Assembly (NCBI GenBank): GCA_001784555.1
Contig: MFRM01000017.1
Span: 40,020 to 104,019, forward strand
Length of the DNA: 64,000 nt
Reading direction: 5' to 3'
Source: Candidatus Melainabacteria bacterium RIFCSPHIGHO2_02_FULL_34_12
Lineage (GTDB): Bacteria > Cyanobacteriota > Vampirovibrionia > 2-02-FULL-35-15
Of this stretch, positions 5,069 through 60,081 are shown in pieces. The notes below the pieces were generated by a model. That model did not search any database. It was not told the DNA's origin and worked only from the letters and a program-made list of their open reading frames with translations. How positions within the stretch are numbered: the first letter of the stretch is position 1; each line of letters opens with the position of its first letter. The position numbers and the translations under genes were made by a program.

Positions 5069-5121
5069 CAATACTCTACTCAGCAACTTATTAATTTAAA
5101 CATTCATTTTGAATTTACAAT

Positions 5122-5282
5122 AAACGACTTCCCTAAAATCGGCTATCCATGTAGCAAGACTACATGGTATTACGCCGATTTTTGCCTGCAGCAACGGTTG
5201 TCGCATTATAAGGAAGTCGTTTGTTTTCCTTCGCTTATATCCCTGCAGCAAGACTGCAGGGTATTACGCTTCAGTCAAATAA
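5122..5282. repeat. R1 dispersed compound palindromic repeat, copy 1
   Basis: Outer arms AAACGACTTCC(5122-5132)/GGAAGTCGTTT(5212-5222); inner arms AAAATCGGC/GCCGATTTT; hairpins CCATGTAG-CAAGA-CTACATGG (5147-5167) and CCCTGCAG-CAAGA-CTGCAGGG (5241-5261), each followed by TATTACGC. Confidence 0.9.
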
Positions 5283-6912
5283 GACTTTCAATAGTTATTA
5301 GACCAAGACTATGCAACAATTCTGCCTGTGAATTATTATAGTTAATTACAGCATCTACCTCTGACGCAAGAGCATCAGCATATTGTTTTTGTGCATTTAA
5401 CAATTCAAGATTAATTCCAACACCATTTTCTAATCTTAACTTAGCTAATCTCAATGCCTCAGAAGCAGCATTAACTCTGCGTTTTGTCACATCAAGTAAT
5501 TTTTCATTAGCTTGAACGTTTAAATATGCTGTTCTTACTTCTTGCTCAATATTCTGATTAATTTTATTTAGAACAATCTTTGCTAGATTGGCTTGATATC
5601 TTGCCTGATTTATTCGAGAAACAGTCGGTATACCTAAGCCATCTGCAAGCTCCCAGTCAATTTGAACACCTAAAAATTTACTCGTCATTAATGAATCATC
5701 GATTTTATTAAGGAAGGGATCACCTGCTCCTCTAACAACATTTGAAACATTGGTAATATCAGACAAGTCAACCTGAGGATCAAAAGTCTGATACATTCTT
5801 CTGCCTCTAGTGACCATTTGTGCAACAGGACTTCCGTCAGGATTTAAACGAATGGCATCAGGAACAATCTCATTTACTTTAGTTCTGTGAAAAAAGACAT
5901 TTCCTGTCCCGCCAAACTGACCAAAAAAGTTTGCACGGGGAAGAAAAGCTGAATACGCAGAACCAATATAATATTTTTGAGCACTATACTCATATTGAGC
6001 TTTTTTAATTTCAGACCTGTTCTCCATAGCCACAGAGAGTATCTCAGAGATTGGCTTATCAATATCAAAAAGCTTTTTCACTATTAAATCCTTTTCATCA
6101 GGTTTTATATGAATACCTTGTTCCAAGTTCAATATTCGAGCAAGATTTATCGATGCTTCCCTAAATTCTGACTGCTGAACAATATATTTCTGCTCTTGCT
6201 CGGCAAGCTGCGCTTCAGATTGTAAAACATCAAATTTGGTTCCAGCTCCTGACTTTTCAAGATTTTTATTTAACTCAAGCTCACTTTGAGCTTCCTCAAC
6301 TGATTTTGCAAAAACATTTAGTTGTGCTTTTTCTTTAAGGAGTTGATTGTAAGCCTTAGTAACTATAAGAAAGATATCTTTTTGAGAAGCAGATAAGTTT
6401 TCATCTGCTGATTTATATAATTTTTTTGCAGCCAGAGTATTAAATAAACCTTTTCCACCTTCAAAAAAATGGTAATCAAACCTCATATAAGCATTAGCAT
6501 TGCTTGTAAGAGCCATTACAGGAAAAACACCACCAATTAAAAATTGACCATCTAGCCTCTGTCCTAAAAGACCCAGCTTATAGTCAGGGAACCAGTTTCC
6601 AATATTTTCCCAAAGCTTCCACTTATTTATGTTTTTTTGATATCTTGACTGGATAAGATCCAGATTCTGTAAAGCTGCTATATTTAAGACCTTTTCTAGA
6701 TTTAATTCAAGAGGTACATCAATTCTTGCTTCAAGCATTATCGGTGAAATTATCTTGCTAGAAAAAATTGATTCATTCTCAGATTCTTTTAATTCATTTG
6801 ATAAAACAGGTAAAGAAGTTAAAATTAATATTGAAATAAATGCTAAACTTTTGAATGATTTTATAGTCTTCATCATGGGGTTATAAATGCCTCTAGTTAT
6901 TATAAAGCTCAT
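5275..6912 (-). CDS. TolC-family outer membrane efflux protein (true start may be at MMKTIKS, near 6876)
   Basis: Signal peptide, long coiled-coil organisation, repeated LNKNLEKSGAGTKFDVLQSEAQLAEQE / LAKLRLENGVGINLELLNAQKQYADAL typical of TolC repeats. Confidence 0.9.
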   Translation of the reverse strand: MSFIITRGIYNPMMKTIKSFKSLAFISILILTSLPVLSNELKESENESIFSSKIISPIMLEARIDVPLELNLEKVLNIAALQNLDLIQSRYQKNINKWKLWENIGNWFPDYKLGLLGQRLDGQFLIGGVFPVMALTSNANAYMRFDYHFFEGGKGLFNTLAAKKLYKSADENLSASQKDIFLIVTKAYNQLLKEKAQLNVFAKSVEEAQSELELNKNLEKSGAGTKFDVLQSEAQLAEQEQKYIVQQSEFREASINLARILNLEQGIHIKPDEKDLIVKKLFDIDKPISEILSVAMENRSEIKKAQYEYSAQKYYIGSAYSAFLPRANFFGQFGGTGNVFFHRTKVNEIVPDAIRLNPDGSPVAQMVTRGRRMYQTFDPQVDLSDITNVSNVVRGAGDPFLNKIDDSLMTSKFLGVQIDWELADGLGIPTVSRINQARYQANLAKIVLNKINQNIEQEVRTAYLNVQANEKLLDVTKRRVNAASEALRLAKLRLENGVGINLELLNAQKQYADALASEVDAVINYNNSQAELLHSLGLITIESLI

Positions 6913-9910: not shown

Positions 9911-10865
9911 TTGCATCTAACTTTAATTTTTGAAACAGTTCCTTATCCTTACTAAAGGATGGATTATCAGTAGTTAAAAGTTTTTCGCCTGTAAATATAC
10001 TGTTAGCACCAGCCAGAAAACAAAGTGCCTGAAGTTCTTCACTCATTTCTAATCTACCAGCAGATAATCTGACTTTTGCTTTTGGTATAAATATTCTGGC
10101 AGTTGAAATAGAACGCACAATTTCAAAAGAATCAATAGGCTTCTGCCCTTCAAGTGGCGTACCCTTTACAGTAACAAGAGCATTTATGGGAACTGATTCA
10201 GGCTGCGGAGATAAATTAGCTAATGTTTTAATTAATTCAATTCTGTCTTTTCTATCTTCACCAAGACCAACAATTCCCCCGCAGCATACCTGAATCCCTG
10301 CATCTGAAACATTTTGAATGGTCTCTAATCGATCTTTATATGTCCTTGTAGTAATTATTTCTTTATAATATTCTTCCGAGGTATCAAGATTATGATTATA
10401 TGCAGTTAAGCCTGCATCCTTTAACCGTATAGCCTGCTCATAAGTTAACATTCCAAGAGTACAACAAACCTCCATCTTTAACGCAGCAACATTACTTACA
10501 ATATTTAAAATATCATCAAAATCTTTATTATCAGGTACATCTCTCCAGGCAGCACCCATACAAAATCTGGTAGCACCATTTTCCTTTGCATGTAATGCCT
10601 GTTTCAATACTTCATCCTTATGGAGAAGCTTATATTTTTCAATTTCTGTATTATATCTGGAACTTTGTGGACAATACTTACAATCTTCAGGACAATTACC
10701 GCTTTTAATATTACTAAGTGTACATAATTGTATTTTATTTAAAGGCTGATTTAGTCTATGAATTGAATGTGCTCTAAAAACAAGCTCCAGAAAAGGCAAA
10801 TCATAAATTTCAGCAACATCATCATAAGGATATAGATTCTTTAGGTTTTTAATTTTAACAGGCAA
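9906..10865 (-). CDS. bioB: biotin synthase (radical SAM)
   Basis: SNIKSGNCPEDCKYCPQSSRYNT radical SAM CxxxCxxC, YNHNLDTSEEYYKEIITTRTYKDRLET, GGIVGLGED. Confidence 0.97.
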   Translation of the reverse strand: MPVKIKNLKNLYPYDDVAEIYDLPFLELVFRAHSIHRLNQPLNKIQLCTLSNIKSGNCPEDCKYCPQSSRYNTEIEKYKLLHKDEVLKQALHAKENGATRFCMGAAWRDVPDNKDFDDILNIVSNVAALKMEVCCTLGMLTYEQAIRLKDAGLTAYNHNLDTSEEYYKEIITTRTYKDRLETIQNVSDAGIQVCCGGIVGLGEDRKDRIELIKTLANLSPQPESVPINALVTVKGTPLEGQKPIDSFEIVRSISTARIFIPKAKVRLSAGRLEMSEELQALCFLAGANSIFTGEKLLTTDNPSFSKDKELFQKLKLDAM

Positions 10866-11731
10866 TTTTTTTCTCCGGAAAATATAATTTTATCAGCTTT
10901 CATATTTATAGTTAAAAATGTAATATTTAAGACCTCTTCAAAAGATTGTTTTAAGTAATTCTCAGCACTGTGAAAGTCAATATTACAAGGTCCTAGCGTA
11001 ACGTCAACTAAATAATTAAGTGTCCCATTCACTGGGGGTGACGCCGGAAGGGAGGTGTCCATCCGAGGAGCTACTGCACCGCAGGATGGAGGGGAACCTA
11101 CAGGCGGCAGGACCCGCAGTGAATGGCGCAAGGTATGAAAACTTTGTTGACAATGTACTAGTTCACGGATTTTATTTAATTTTATTGATCCATGCTGCAA
11201 AATAGAATGTTTTTTTCTGCACTGAGCACTGCCAATAATTTTAGTATTATTTACAACAATATCAGCTGATGTCTTTGAATCAAAACAATTAAATTTACTA
11301 TCGTAGGATTTATCCGAATATCCAAAATCAGCAATTAATCCGTATTTATTTAAAAAAGAAATAAGGATACTTCCAATTTCAAAATATATTTTTCTGGCAC
11401 TTCCTGAATGATTAAAAACAAGAGAATATGTTATTTCAGACTCCGACGTATCATGATAGACAGCCTGACCACCTGTTATACGGTTAACCATATTTATATT
11501 ACAAAGATCGGATTTATAATTATGTTTTTTTATCTGACTCGCTCCCAGTGATAAAGTAGGCACTTCCCAGCCATATGTCCGCAGAACAGGTAATTTAATA
11601 TTGCCTTTATTCATTTCATCTAAGAGAAAAGCATCTAAAAGCATGTTTTGCAAGCCGGAAGAAATGCCTGTTTGCAAAAATATCCACTCTTTTGAAATGT
11701 TACTTAAATAATTTGAATCTTTTTTTATCAA
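10841..11731 (-). CDS. lipoate-protein ligase A-like protein, carrying an in-frame 34-codon palindromic insertion
   Basis: LRTYGWEVPTLSLGASQ, VNRITGGQAVYHDTSE (RRxTGGGAVYHD-like), KIIGSAQCRKKHSILQHGSI; GC-rich insert translated HSLRVLPPVGSPPSCGAVAPRMDTSLPASPPVNG. Confidence 0.85.
   Translation of the reverse strand: MIKKDSNYLSNISKEWIFLQTGISSGLQNMLLDAFLLDEMNKGNIKLPVLRTYGWEVPTLSLGASQIKKHNYKSDLCNINMVNRITGGQAVYHDTSESEITYSLVFNHSGSARKIYFEIGSILISFLNKYGLIADFGYSDKSYDSKFNCFDSKTSADIVVNNTKIIGSAQCRKKHSILQHGSIKLNKIRELVHCQQSFHTLRHSLRVLPPVGSPPSCGAVAPRMDTSLPASPPVNGTLNYLVDVTLGPCNIDFHSAENYLKQSFEEVLNITFLTINMKADKIIFSGEKNCLLKLKT
11025..11126. repeat. 102-bp GC-rich palindromic element inserted within a CDS
   Basis: Terminal inverted repeat CCATTCACTG(11025-11034)/CAGTGAATGG(11117-11126), extended by GGGT/ACCC after one mismatch; nested arms GTCCATCC/GGATGG; ~65% GC by hand count in an AT-rich gene. 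Confidence 0.85.
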
Positions 11732-14006: not shown

Positions 14007-14972
14007 GTGGATATAACAAAAGAAACAAAAGTAGGGGTTATTTGTGGTGGTATATCAAGCGAACGAGAAATCTCACTCAGGTCAGGATTAAATTCATTTA
14101 ATGCACTAAAGAAAATAGGCTATAAAAATACAGCTCTTATAGACATAAAATCTCCAGATGATATTTTTAATTTAAAAAATAAGATTGAAATTGCCTTTTT
14201 ACTTACACATGGAAAATACGGCGAAGATGGTGCTATTCAGGGAATCCTTGAATGGTTAAAGATTCCCTATACGGGTTCATCTGTGCTAGCTAGTGCTATT
14301 TCAATGGACAAATGGCTAACTAAACTAATAGCAAGAAGTAACAACATTTCTACTCCAAAAGGACAGGTAATCAATAAATCACATAAGCAAAACATTAGCC
14401 TGGAAATGGAAAGCATTTGGCATGATCTAACAAAAAAAGAACAAGCAGTATTTTTAAAACCCAGAGACGATGGATCTAGCGTAAACACCTTTAAAATTAA
14501 AACTCTGGAAGAATTAAAAAATAAAATAAACAGCATCGATTTAAATGCATCTGATTATATTGTTGAAGAGTTTATCCCCGGAAGAGAACTTACAGTAAGC
14601 TTACTTGAAGTTAAAAATCAGCTAAAAGTCCTTCCTGTTCTTGAATTAAAACCAAAAAATGAATTCTATGATTTTGAAGCAAAATATACCAAAGGACTTA
14701 CAGAATTTATTCTTCCTGCAAAATTAGACACTCAAGCTCTTAAAGAACTGGAAGATAAAGCCCTGGGAATTTTTACAAGTGTGGGATGTTCTTCTTTTGG
14801 AAGAGTTGATTTTATATTGGATCAAAATAATATTCCATATTTATTAGAGATAAATTCATTACCCGGCATGACAGATACCAGCGACCTCCCTGCACAAGCA
14901 AACCATGCTGGAATTAAATATGATGAGCTTGTTGAAATAATTCTTTTTTCTGCAAGGCTTCACAAACATTAA
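14007..14972 (+). CDS. ddl: D-alanine--D-alanine ligase (GTG start)
   Basis: VICGGISSEREISLRSG, LLTHGKYGEDGAIQG, YTGSSVLASAISMDKWLTK, LLEINSLPGMTDTSDLP. Confidence 0.97.
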   Translation: MDITKETKVGVICGGISSEREISLRSGLNSFNALKKIGYKNTALIDIKSPDDIFNLKNKIEIAFLLTHGKYGEDGAIQGILEWLKIPYTGSSVLASAISMDKWLTKLIARSNNISTPKGQVINKSHKQNISLEMESIWHDLTKKEQAVFLKPRDDGSSVNTFKIKTLEELKNKINSIDLNASDYIVEEFIPGRELTVSLLEVKNQLKVLPVLELKPKNEFYDFEAKYTKGLTEFILPAKLDTQALKELEDKALGIFTSVGCSSFGRVDFILDQNNIPYLLEINSLPGMTDTSDLPAQANHAGIKYDELVEIILFSARLHKH

Positions 14973-15134
14973 ATAAACCGACTTCCTTAAAATCGGCTAT
15001 CCCTGCTGCAAGCAACAGGGTATTACGCCGATTTTTGACTTCGTCACCAGTCGTCGGGATTTGGAAGTCGGTTTGATTTCGCTTGCTAAATCCCTCGTGG
15101 CAAGCCACGGGGTATTACGCTTCGCTCAAATAAG
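14972..15134. repeat. R1 dispersed compound palindromic repeat, copy 2
   Basis: AAACCGACTTCC(14975-14986)/GGAAGTCGGTTT(15063-15074); hairpins CCCTGCTG-CAAG-CAACAGGG (15001-15020) and CCCTCGTGG-CAAG-CCACGGGG (15092-15112), each followed by TATTACGC; ends TTCGCTCAAATAAG. Confidence 0.92.
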
Positions 15135-15138
15135 TTTC

Positions 15139-15248
15139 ACTGAAAAAGTCACTTTTTTATGCTCAGCATATGCCCTTTCGCTCCCTTACACCCTAGGAGG
15201 GATACGCTCGCTCCAGGGCATATGCTGAGCTTTTGTGACTTTTTCAGT
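15139..15248. repeat. 110-bp nested palindrome between ddl and dnaB
   Basis: ACTGAAAAAGTCAC(15139-15152)/GTGACTTTTTCAGT(15235-15248) and GCTCAGCATATGCCCT(15161-15176)/AGGGCATATGCTGAGC(15215-15230), both perfect. Confidence 0.92.
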
Positions 15249-15267
15249 AGTTTAATAACTCAGCTTT

Positions 15268-18529: not shown

Positions 18530-18690
18530 TTATTTGAGCGAAGCGTAATACCCAGTGGCTTGCCACTGAGATATAAGTGAGCGAAATCAAACCGACTTCC
18601 AAATCCGACGTCCGGTGACAAAGTTAAAAATCGGTGTAATATCCTACTGCTTGCGGCAGGAACGACCAATTTTAGAGAAGTCGGTTTATT
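18530..18690. repeat. R1 dispersed compound palindromic repeat, copy 3 (inverted relative to copies 1 and 2)
   Basis: TTATTTGAGCGAAGCGTAATACCC start; hairpins CAGTGG-CTTG-CCACTG (18553-18568) and CCTACTG-CTTG-CGGCAGG; AAACCGACTTC(18589-)/GAAGTCGGTTT(18677-18687). Confidence 0.9.
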
Positions 18691-20636
18691 TTTTCTAAAG
18701 TTTCTTCATATGACTGGGCAAACCAAACAGGGATTGGAGCTATAATTCTTTTTCCAATAAGCTTTTCATCTATCTTTTTTGCAAAATCAAAGAATGATGC
18801 CATATTAATAACTTTTCTTACATCAGTTAATTTATTTGCTCCTTTAAATTGTTCAAAAAAGTAATTGCAGCCTTTATATCTGACACCATCCTGACTTCCA
18901 TAGCTATAAGCACGGCAGGTAAAGGGTCTGTTTTCATATATATTACATTTGTTATCACCAAGGAAAGGGCATTCAAATACAAAATCAGTAGGGAATTCTT
19001 TATTTAAATCAAAACTTTCCCCATGCATAAATGGCGGTTCTTTGCCATATCTGTTCTTATACAGATTTACTATATCTCTGGAAACTTTATATATTTTATT
19101 TTTAATTTCATCACTTTGCCCAGAAAGCCAATCGTTCATATAAGAATATTCAATAAATGAAACATAAGGGAAAGTTTTTGTGCAACAATCCTGGCAACCA
19201 GTTTCAACACAAGTCATTGAGTTTAATCCATATTCCATGTCAAAAATGCTAATTAGTTTTTTGGTTTGTTCAAAAGCAATTCTTAGTAATTTGAAATTTT
19301 CATTTGTATTTTCCGAAATCTGGTAATTTAAGTCCAGATTTACAAGCTTACAGTGAAAACCCATATCTTTATCAGGTAAATATTTTTGCCTGTAGAGTAT
19401 AAGCTCTTTCTCTGCGGAATCCTCTAATCCTCTGATTCTATAGATCCAAGCCTTTATCCTATGGACCTCTTCATCGATGCATCCTGAAAGCATTTTCTCT
19501 GCCTTATCAAGCTCATTGTTTTTAATCAGCAACTCAGCTATATAAAGCTGCAAGAAAGGCAATACTGCAAAATAGCCTAATTCCTGAAATCTTTGAATTA
19601 GCAACTCTGCTGTAGTTTCTCGCTTTGAGTAAATTAATTTTTTAATTACTTCTATAATTTCTCTGGAAATCATTTTTTGATTTGGGAATTGTGCTTTATC
19701 TAATGAAGCACCCATAAAGGCTGAATATATAAAATACAGTGCTATAAATTGAGGCTCATACCCAGGAATTATTTTATTAAACGATTCGGAGAATTTTTCT
19801 GCATTCCCCATAATTAAATAAGACAACGAAATAAAAAGCAGTGCATTAGGATGTGTATTTTTTATGGCTAGCACTTCATTTAAGACCTGAACAGCTTTAT
19901 CATATTCTGACAAATGATAATGAATCATTCCCAAATAAAGATTTTTATTTATGTTGTCATCTGAAAGGATTTTATTAATGTGTTTATAAAGATCCAGAAT
20001 AGCTGTTTTATCATCCAAAAGCGTGAAGGCTGAATAAACGACATGGTAATTTTGAATTTCATAAGGAAAAGTATTTAATAGTTTAAATGAAAATCTGATC
20101 AGTCCTTTAAGTTTTGACTGGTAATAAAGCCGTTCCAGAATCCAAAACTTCTCAGGCTTTTTATTTTTCCAAAAAGCGTTATTAGAATTATTTTCTAAAT
20201 TGCTTTGATTAATTAACTCAGCAGTTTTTTGTCTTAGCTCCTCAGCATGATTCAACACTAATACAGACTTATCATCAGACAGCCACTTGACAATATCCAA
20301 AGAAAATAAAACAATATCCCATGCCTTATGTTCAAATGCAATCTCTGCAAACAGTAAATAATTTTTTGGATTAACCGGTTCAGCCTGACACGCAGACATA
20401 ACAAGATCACAGGCATAAGCAGGGTTTTTACTCTTTATTAAATCTGCCAAAAGACATTTTGATTTAACATATCCATGTGTTTTTTTTTCAAGAAAACTTA
20501 ATAAAAACTTTTCACGTTCATCTAAATCTGATATTAAGGCAGCTTCATTTACCAGATTTTCATCATTTTTTTTCTTTTCAATAGAAGCTTCAAGACCAGA
20601 TGATGTAACTCCTAATAATTCTAAGGATTTTTTCAT
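18672..20636 (-). CDS. TPR-like protein with C-terminal YkgJ-type cysteine-cluster domain
   Basis: C-terminal CVETGCQDCCTKTFPYVSFIEYSYM ... CPFLGDNKCNIYENRPFTCRAYSYGSQDGVRYKGCNYF; helical repeats upstream. Confidence 0.8.
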   Translation of the reverse strand: MKKSLELLGVTSSGLEASIEKKKNDENLVNEAALISDLDEREKFLLSFLEKKTHGYVKSKCLLADLIKSKNPAYACDLVMSACQAEPVNPKNYLLFAEIAFEHKAWDIVLFSLDIVKWLSDDKSVLVLNHAEELRQKTAELINQSNLENNSNNAFWKNKKPEKFWILERLYYQSKLKGLIRFSFKLLNTFPYEIQNYHVVYSAFTLLDDKTAILDLYKHINKILSDDNINKNLYLGMIHYHLSEYDKAVQVLNEVLAIKNTHPNALLFISLSYLIMGNAEKFSESFNKIIPGYEPQFIALYFIYSAFMGASLDKAQFPNQKMISREIIEVIKKLIYSKRETTAELLIQRFQELGYFAVLPFLQLYIAELLIKNNELDKAEKMLSGCIDEEVHRIKAWIYRIRGLEDSAEKELILYRQKYLPDKDMGFHCKLVNLDLNYQISENTNENFKLLRIAFEQTKKLISIFDMEYGLNSMTCVETGCQDCCTKTFPYVSFIEYSYMNDWLSGQSDEIKNKIYKVSRDIVNLYKNRYGKEPPFMHGESFDLNKEFPTDFVFECPFLGDNKCNIYENRPFTCRAYSYGSQDGVRYKGCNYFFEQFKGANKLTDVRKVINMASFFDFAKKIDEKLIGKRIIAPIPVWFAQSYEETLEKINRLL

Positions 20637-55844: not shown

Positions 55845-55887
55845 ATTTTATAACAGTAATTTTGAGATTAATTCCACTGTTTTTACT

Positions 55888-55996
55888 CAGCTGGCTCTGC
55901 GGTGACGTTGCTCCTCGAGCCAGCTTTGCATAGTGCACTTGGATAAATCAATCTTAACGTTTTTTAGGTTTTGCCGAACAAGTCGGACAAAACCTT
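55888..55996. repeat. R2 dispersed palindromic repeat, copy A
   Basis: AGCTGGCTC(55889-55897)/GAGCCAGCT(55917-55925); AGGTTTTG-CCGA-ACAAG-TCGG-A-CAAAACCT (55966-55995). Confidence 0.85.
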
Positions 55997-56196
55997 TATC
56001 AATTAATTGTTTTACTCTAATCATTACAATATACCTGAGCAGTTACATTCTACTTAATTAAGACGATCAGTCTATTAATTTCTTACCCAAAAGCCTAATC
56101 AAATTAAGCTATCAATATATCTTACAGTCATATGCATAACTTTTTACTTAAATACAGGAAAAAATAGCAAAAAAAAGCTCTATAATTCTTTCTGTA

Positions 56197-59840: not shown

Positions 59841-59912
59841 AGCGGAAGACGGGGTTCGAACCCGCGACCTTCTCCTTGGCAAGGAGACATTCTACCACTG
59901 AACTACTTCCGC
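59841..59912 (-). tRNA. tRNA-Gly (anticodon GCC), no encoded CCA
   Basis: Reverse complement GCGGAAGTAGTTCAGTGGTAGAATGTCTCCTTGCCAAGGAGAAGGTCGCGGGTTCGAACCCCGTCTTCCGC forms a full cloverleaf; anticodon loop TTGCCAA. Confidence 0.97.
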
Positions 59913-59924
59913 GAAATTCTATAG

Positions 59925-60010
59925 CAGCTGGTTCTGCGGTGACATAGCTCCTCAAACCAGCTTTGCATAGACCGCTCGGTTTGCCAAATAAATTGGACAA
60001 ACCTCGCTTT
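59925..60010. repeat. R2 dispersed palindromic repeat, copy B
   Basis: CAGCTGGTTCTGCGGTGACATAGCTCCTCAAACCAGCTTTGCATAG matches copy A; GGTTTG-CCAA-ATAAA-TTGG-A-CAAACC (59978-60003). Confidence 0.85.
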
Positions 60011-60081
60011 ATTAAATTGTATTTATTCAACCCCATTGATTTCTAAATATCAATGATAAATTTAACATATTATAAATTCTT

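Follow-up and report, generated by a model that had tools for sequence, protein, structure and literature searches.

Two positions in a window of 64,000 nucleotides from contig MFRM01000017.1 of a Candidatus Melainabacteria genome carry a repeat with two hairpins, whose stems differ in sequence between the copies and yet remain paired, and the question is whether such a repeat is a structured RNA or a DNA element recognized as a hairpin, the two readings left side by side in an earlier note on this DNA. Both copies were found where that note had placed them. Within the window, two instances of the 29-base core around loop 1 were counted, whereas 100 shuffles gave none (0.00 expected). In copy A, hairpin 1 (55889–55925, plus strand) consists of the arms AGCTGGCTC (55889–55897) and GAGCCAGCT (55917–55925) around a conserved 19-base loop, and hairpin 2 (55966–55995, plus strand) of AGGTTTTG-CCGA (55966–55977), the loop ACAAG and TCGG-A-CAAAACCT (55983–55995), with a one-base bulge. 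In copy B, hairpin 1 (59926–59962, plus strand) pairs AGCTGGTT (59926–59933) with AACCAGCT (59955–59962) across the loop; the alignments then place a conserved linker, TTGCATAGACCGCTC (59963–59977, plus strand), before hairpin 2 (59978–60003, plus strand), in which GGTTTG-CCAA (59978–59987), the loop ATAAA and TTGG-A-CAAACC (59993–60003) again leave one base bulged, and a conserved tail, TCGCTTTATTA (60004–60014, plus strand), after it. Both copies fold better than shuffled sequences, with z scores of −2.8 to −4.2 as RNA and −3.4 to −5.2 as DNA.

The two copies belong to one family, as the earlier note had proposed, but they are not the same kind of insertion. Copy A is a MITE of 168 bp (55879–56046, plus strand) that contains the two-hairpin core and matches the covariance model. 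It is bounded by the terminal inverted repeats GTTTTTACTCAG (55879–55890, plus strand) and CTGAGCAGTTAC (56035–56046, plus strand) and flanked by an 8-bp target duplication, ATTCCACT (55871–55878) on the left, which is identical at 7 of 8 positions to ATTCTACT (56047–56054) on the right. The note had therefore located copy A correctly but drawn it too short. In the region upstream of nuoN, the copy A element is absent from the nine relatives compared; one of the related genomes, G009, has a different small hairpin there. Copy B, in contrast, is a bare core (59913–60015, plus strand, left limit approximate; model match 59924–60015, 105 bits) that starts no more than ∼12 bp from the 5′ end of a tRNA-Gly gene (59841–59912, minus strand), as the start of other core copies (L092 and L103) also adjoins tRNA 5′ ends. 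Its junction is shared with G002 (L013), the position is empty in G001, G004, G007, and G009, and no gene-tail repeat was detected at tRNA-Gly.

Other repeats were seen alongside these two. A separate dispersed repeat, whose variable stems and nested inverted repeats surround GGTATTACGC, occupies 5115–5283, 14969–15134, and 18530–18691 of the window and is probably the one listed as R1 in the earlier note. A long inverted repeat at 15140–15250, with arms of ∼50 bp (AAGTCAC...GCATATGCCC), has the appearance of an additional MITE. Within an ORF at 10841–11731, a GC-rich hairpin stretch (11020–11125, minus strand) has a loop, CTGCGGTGCAGTAGCTCCTCG, that resembles loop 1 of the element, and weak matches of equal score recur elsewhere in the genome. 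Outside the window, a tandem array of hairpin 2-like units (GCATTTGCCGAGTAAATCGGACAAATGC) lies near hslO in G006 (L218, about 2460–2740).

The element is gene-free, spans ∼115–170 bases, and comprises two hairpins joined by a conserved linker. In 74 copies aligned by fitting to the covariance model, all 19 stem pairs are doubly changed; 266 double-change cells were observed compared with 80 (sd 6) in shuffles, and 90% of stem cells are paired compared with at most 61% once the partners are slid. The same picture of covariation was obtained with an independent MAFFT alignment of 20 copies. Thus, the compensatory changes first noticed between the two window copies hold throughout the expanded alignment, and the idea that the element is just flanking sequence of a recent duplication is excluded by copies that sit in unrelated contexts in eight genomes. 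Judged from these alignments, the stems are conserved through pairing and not through sequence. Hairpin 2 carries a one-base bulge on its 3′ side, mostly A, and a five-base loop, usually ATAAA. The 19-base loop of hairpin 1 is kept in the main subfamily; in other subfamilies, loop 1 has been swapped out and the linker and hairpin 2 are retained. RNA helices normally hold more wobble pairs than were found here: the 1227 stem cells include 1177 Watson-Crick pairs, 9 G.T, and 25 A.C, and this near-absence of wobble pairs makes the stems look like DNA hairpins rather than RNA. Two further structural roles were considered and dropped. A pseudoknot between loop 1 and the linker is not claimed because its positions, although 92% paired, show zero double changes and copies with a replaced loop 1 still have the linker; a terminator role was discarded because, reading along the direction of transcription, neither hairpin is followed by a T run.

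The window's own genome has 14 instances of the core, which is also present in six further genomes of the same Melainabacteria family; records that contain the exact core are, where named, mostly Candidatus Melainabacteria. A covariance model recovered the core together with diverged subfamilies. A broader model found ∼90 copies in 8 of the 11 genomes of this family (17, 18, 23, 12, 7, 6, 5, and 2 copies per carrier) and 0 copies in 106 other genomes of the class, where stricter filters were applied that weak relatives could escape. No match to the element was seen in viral contigs, phages, or plasmids, and the search of Rfam returned no family match to it, tRNAs being the only matches above threshold. 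Exact matches to the loop in Actinomycetota, Zixiibacteriota, Deltaproteobacteria, Verrucomicrobia, and Alphaproteobacteria are attributed to chance because the model finds nothing at those five loci; by our own estimate, ∼7 chance matches to the pattern are expected. A single core match in G058, outside the family, was also rejected as spurious, the hairpin being absent on inspection. Within the collections and literature searched, the element family is new.

Members of the family were found in two settings. In one, 14 copies, 93–169 bp long (usually about 140–170 bp) and without coding capacity, have inverted ends, a GTWWTTACTCAG-like repeat and its inverted counterpart. The 8-mers flanking these copies match at seven or more of eight positions in 9 of the 14, compared with 0 of 182 mispaired controls. 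MITE-type copies show no consistent relation to neighboring genes, and no autonomous parent transposon with MITE ends was found in regions with matching ends.

In the other setting, the bare core of ∼115 bp lies between two versions of the 3′ end of a gene. Eleven model-supported copies are of this kind, at the genes for UPF0047 (L005), tRNA-Thr (L006), tRNA-Phe (L030), tRNA-Ser (L040), and tRNA-Met (L128), at ddpX twice (L011/L135 and L032/L136), at prfA (L010), fusA (L037/L158), and trpB (L041/L146), all three named by protein inspection, and at an unidentified gene (L102). The orientation is identical at all ten target genes, with hairpin 2 toward the intact gene. The gene-tail repeats, 30–83 bp in length, start within the gene at the A-rich end of the element and run to the stop codon or the tRNA end, or close to it. 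Those in tRNA-Thr, -Phe, and -Met begin at AGCAG, immediately ahead of the anticodon arm, and that in tRNA-Ser begins at the T arm. An unsupervised repeat scan of the retrieved loci also recovered gene-tail repeats around the core and yielded further inserts at ddpX (G010 and G009) and fusA (G005), in which the two-hairpin order was recognized by eye and the model score is weak or none. The inserts between gene-tail repeats measure 87–158 bp and lack coding capacity. Many core copies, copy B among them, show no gene-tail repeat. Every genome used is a metagenome assembly; misassembly is an unlikely source of the gene-tail repeats because several assemblies, made independently, have them at different loci.

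The two tails of a pair look like diverged orthologues rather than the products of a fresh duplication. Across six coding cases, they differ at 30 synonymous and 9 nonsynonymous positions (p = 3e-14; 80% of sites are nonsynonymous), and this synonymous excess indicates that selection maintained both tails as gene ends during their divergence. At trpB, the 3′ flank GGTTAAGAAATYATAGACA, which directly follows trpB in several relatives, comes after the far tail, so the far, displaced tail is the native one there, and the tail joined to the gene came in with the element or through exchange of the surrounding DNA. The same ddpX position is occupied in G004, G008, G009, and G010; G001 retains a remnant, and in G000, G002, and G003 the site is empty. 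The fusA position is filled in G000, G001, and G005 but not in G002, G003, and G007.

Three gene-end loci have peculiarities of their own. In G001, the fusA position used in G000 contains a different insert of ∼100 bp, also between two fusA tails (L160), and several small element families may thus share gene-end sites. An orphan ddpX 3′ end lies beside a truncated core elsewhere in that genome (L142, G001:C32:162354), in which the rest of ddpX was not found. At the tRNA-Met locus (L128, G000:C17, about 115743), ARAGORN calls a second, chimeric tRNA-Met composed of element sequence and the displaced tRNA tail.

Overall, we favor, with a probability of roughly 0.6, the reading that the family is non-autonomous mobile DNA, a two-hairpin core that travels in a MITE or sits bare at gene ends, where it resembles an attP and is moved in trans, probably by a tyrosine recombinase. 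In this scheme, the core plus a gene tail would act as a minimal attP and integrate in Campbell fashion at the 3′ end of the gene, with the recombinase, most likely a tyrosine recombinase, supplied in trans. The core would be recognized as folded single-stranded DNA, as integron attC sites are; because only pairing is conserved, the folded single strand is probably the substrate. The recombinase, the circle, and the single-stranded substrate are all steps that we infer. IMEs typically restore the 3′ ends of their target genes through one direct repeat, and such restoration is typical of integration by tyrosine recombinases (PMC5704250). The window's genome contains an integrative element of 12.4 kb in tRNA-Pro (G000:C3:183177–195642; L235, L237) that encodes a 387-aa protein with HTH and tyrosine-recombinase domains; its repeat, which spans the anticodon arm to the tRNA end, is of the same kind as the gene-tail repeats of the core and starts at almost the position where those in tRNA-Thr, -Phe, and -Met start. 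In relatives, integrases related to this protein are located at tRNA-Arg, -Asp, -Thr, -Ala, and -Pro. No element-linked recombinase was found among the loci analyzed, and the ends of the integrase-bearing elements searched contain no core. The only integrase found beside a copy flanks a MITE-type copy (L076/L009); it was rejected as a partner, its adjacency being taken as coincidence, as the copy in question is of MITE type and has an 8-bp duplication of its own. We tentatively take the reading one step further: the gene-end copies could represent a new class of satellites that consist of an attP alone, gene-free units of ∼115 bp that would fold as single-stranded DNA, move between species with a captured gene tail, and integrate at the 3′ end of that gene by means of a tyrosine recombinase from the host or a helper, so that the ends of essential genes would be exchanged as the units move.

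The main rival, which we consider rather unlikely, dispenses with a site-specific recombinase. Gene-tail repeats would have arisen by template switching during replication, from the gene end to the element and back upstream, or as very long target duplications; homologous recombination would then have spread the alleles, the recipient's tail replacing one of the two during the exchange and so accounting for the synonymous divergence. The far tail could serve as a homology arm, the repeats vary from 30 to 83 bp with no clear common junction sequence in the genes, and the target genes are many, unusually so for one site-specific system. Template switching does not, however, readily yield a single orientation at ten genes with one fixed element end at the junction, the use of the same ddpX position in at least four genomes, or the placing of the tRNA junctions at the anticodon or T arm, where tyrosine-recombinase sites usually lie. 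Decay of larger integrative elements until only their ends remain, as CIMEs, would fit the presence of integrase-bearing elements at tRNA genes in the same genomes and the likeness of the flanking repeats to attL and attR; this explanation is hardly credible for inserts of one compact size (87–158 bp) whose hairpin order is constant and whose core covaries, features that independent decay would not yield, and for a core that is missing from the ends of the integrase-bearing elements searched.

That the element is instead a structured RNA, either a small RNA gene or a cis-regulator whose dispersal is incidental, would agree with the very strong covariation and the conserved 19-base loop. We judge it very improbable because G.U pairs are almost lacking, whole subfamilies replace loop 1, the MITE-type copies keep no consistent neighbor, mobile-element ends are present, and Rfam holds no match. 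Of the two possibilities originally raised, the DNA element is thus favored, and the RNA is disfavored by the mobile ends, the duplicated gene 3′ ends, the presence or absence of the element at given sites, and the scarcity of wobble pairs. For RNA discovery this is a caution, since the type of covariation by which structured RNAs are called has in this case most likely been produced by a mobile DNA element. If the mobile-DNA reading is true, a two-hairpin attachment site is all that mobility by site-specific integration requires, and sites of this type can spread by dozens through a bacterial family, swapping the 3′ ends of essential genes (fusA, prfA, trpB, and tRNAs) for orthologous tails; this would also be a case outside integrons of DNA recombination sites conserved by structure only.

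MITEs and integrative elements are known kinds, but their combination, and the small gene-end form, were to our knowledge not known before. Copy A and 13 others resemble MITEs in being short and gene-free, with terminal inverted repeats and a fixed 8-bp target duplication; they differ in that they contain a covarying two-hairpin core, found also without MITE ends, and in that the parent transposon was not found. The bulged hairpin recalls the subterminal hairpins of IS200/IS605-derived elements, which leave no target duplication, but the 8-bp duplications argue against that assignment for copy A. Like IMEs and CIMEs, the gene-end copies use the 3′ ends of tRNA and housekeeping genes as insertion sites, and one direct repeat restores the gene; unlike IMEs and CIMEs, they are ∼115 bp rather than kilobases long, have no recombinase gene, use many target genes, and form a multicopy family (PMC5704250). 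Integron attC sites and gene cassettes share with the element a recombination site kept as a hairpin in structure rather than sequence, with an extrahelical base (PMC2727003); the element has no integron platform (the integrase search used PF00589, which is not IntI-specific), no R or L boxes (GTTRRRY/RYYYAAC) were seen at the stem feet on inspection of the alignments, and the likeness is one of possible working, not of membership. SEs, strand-biased circularizing integrative elements of the tyrosine-recombinase type, circularize a copy of one strand, a step similar to that proposed for the core; they are several kilobases long with their own recombinases, unlike the element, and the abstract describing them does not mention gene-tail exchange (PMC9345347). 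Rickettsia palindromic elements and REP/REPIN sequences are likewise short, dispersed palindromic repeats of bacteria, and the Rickettsia elements integrate within protein-coding genes as in-frame fusions, whereas here a second tail restores the gene end (PMC10969869, PMC3733652).
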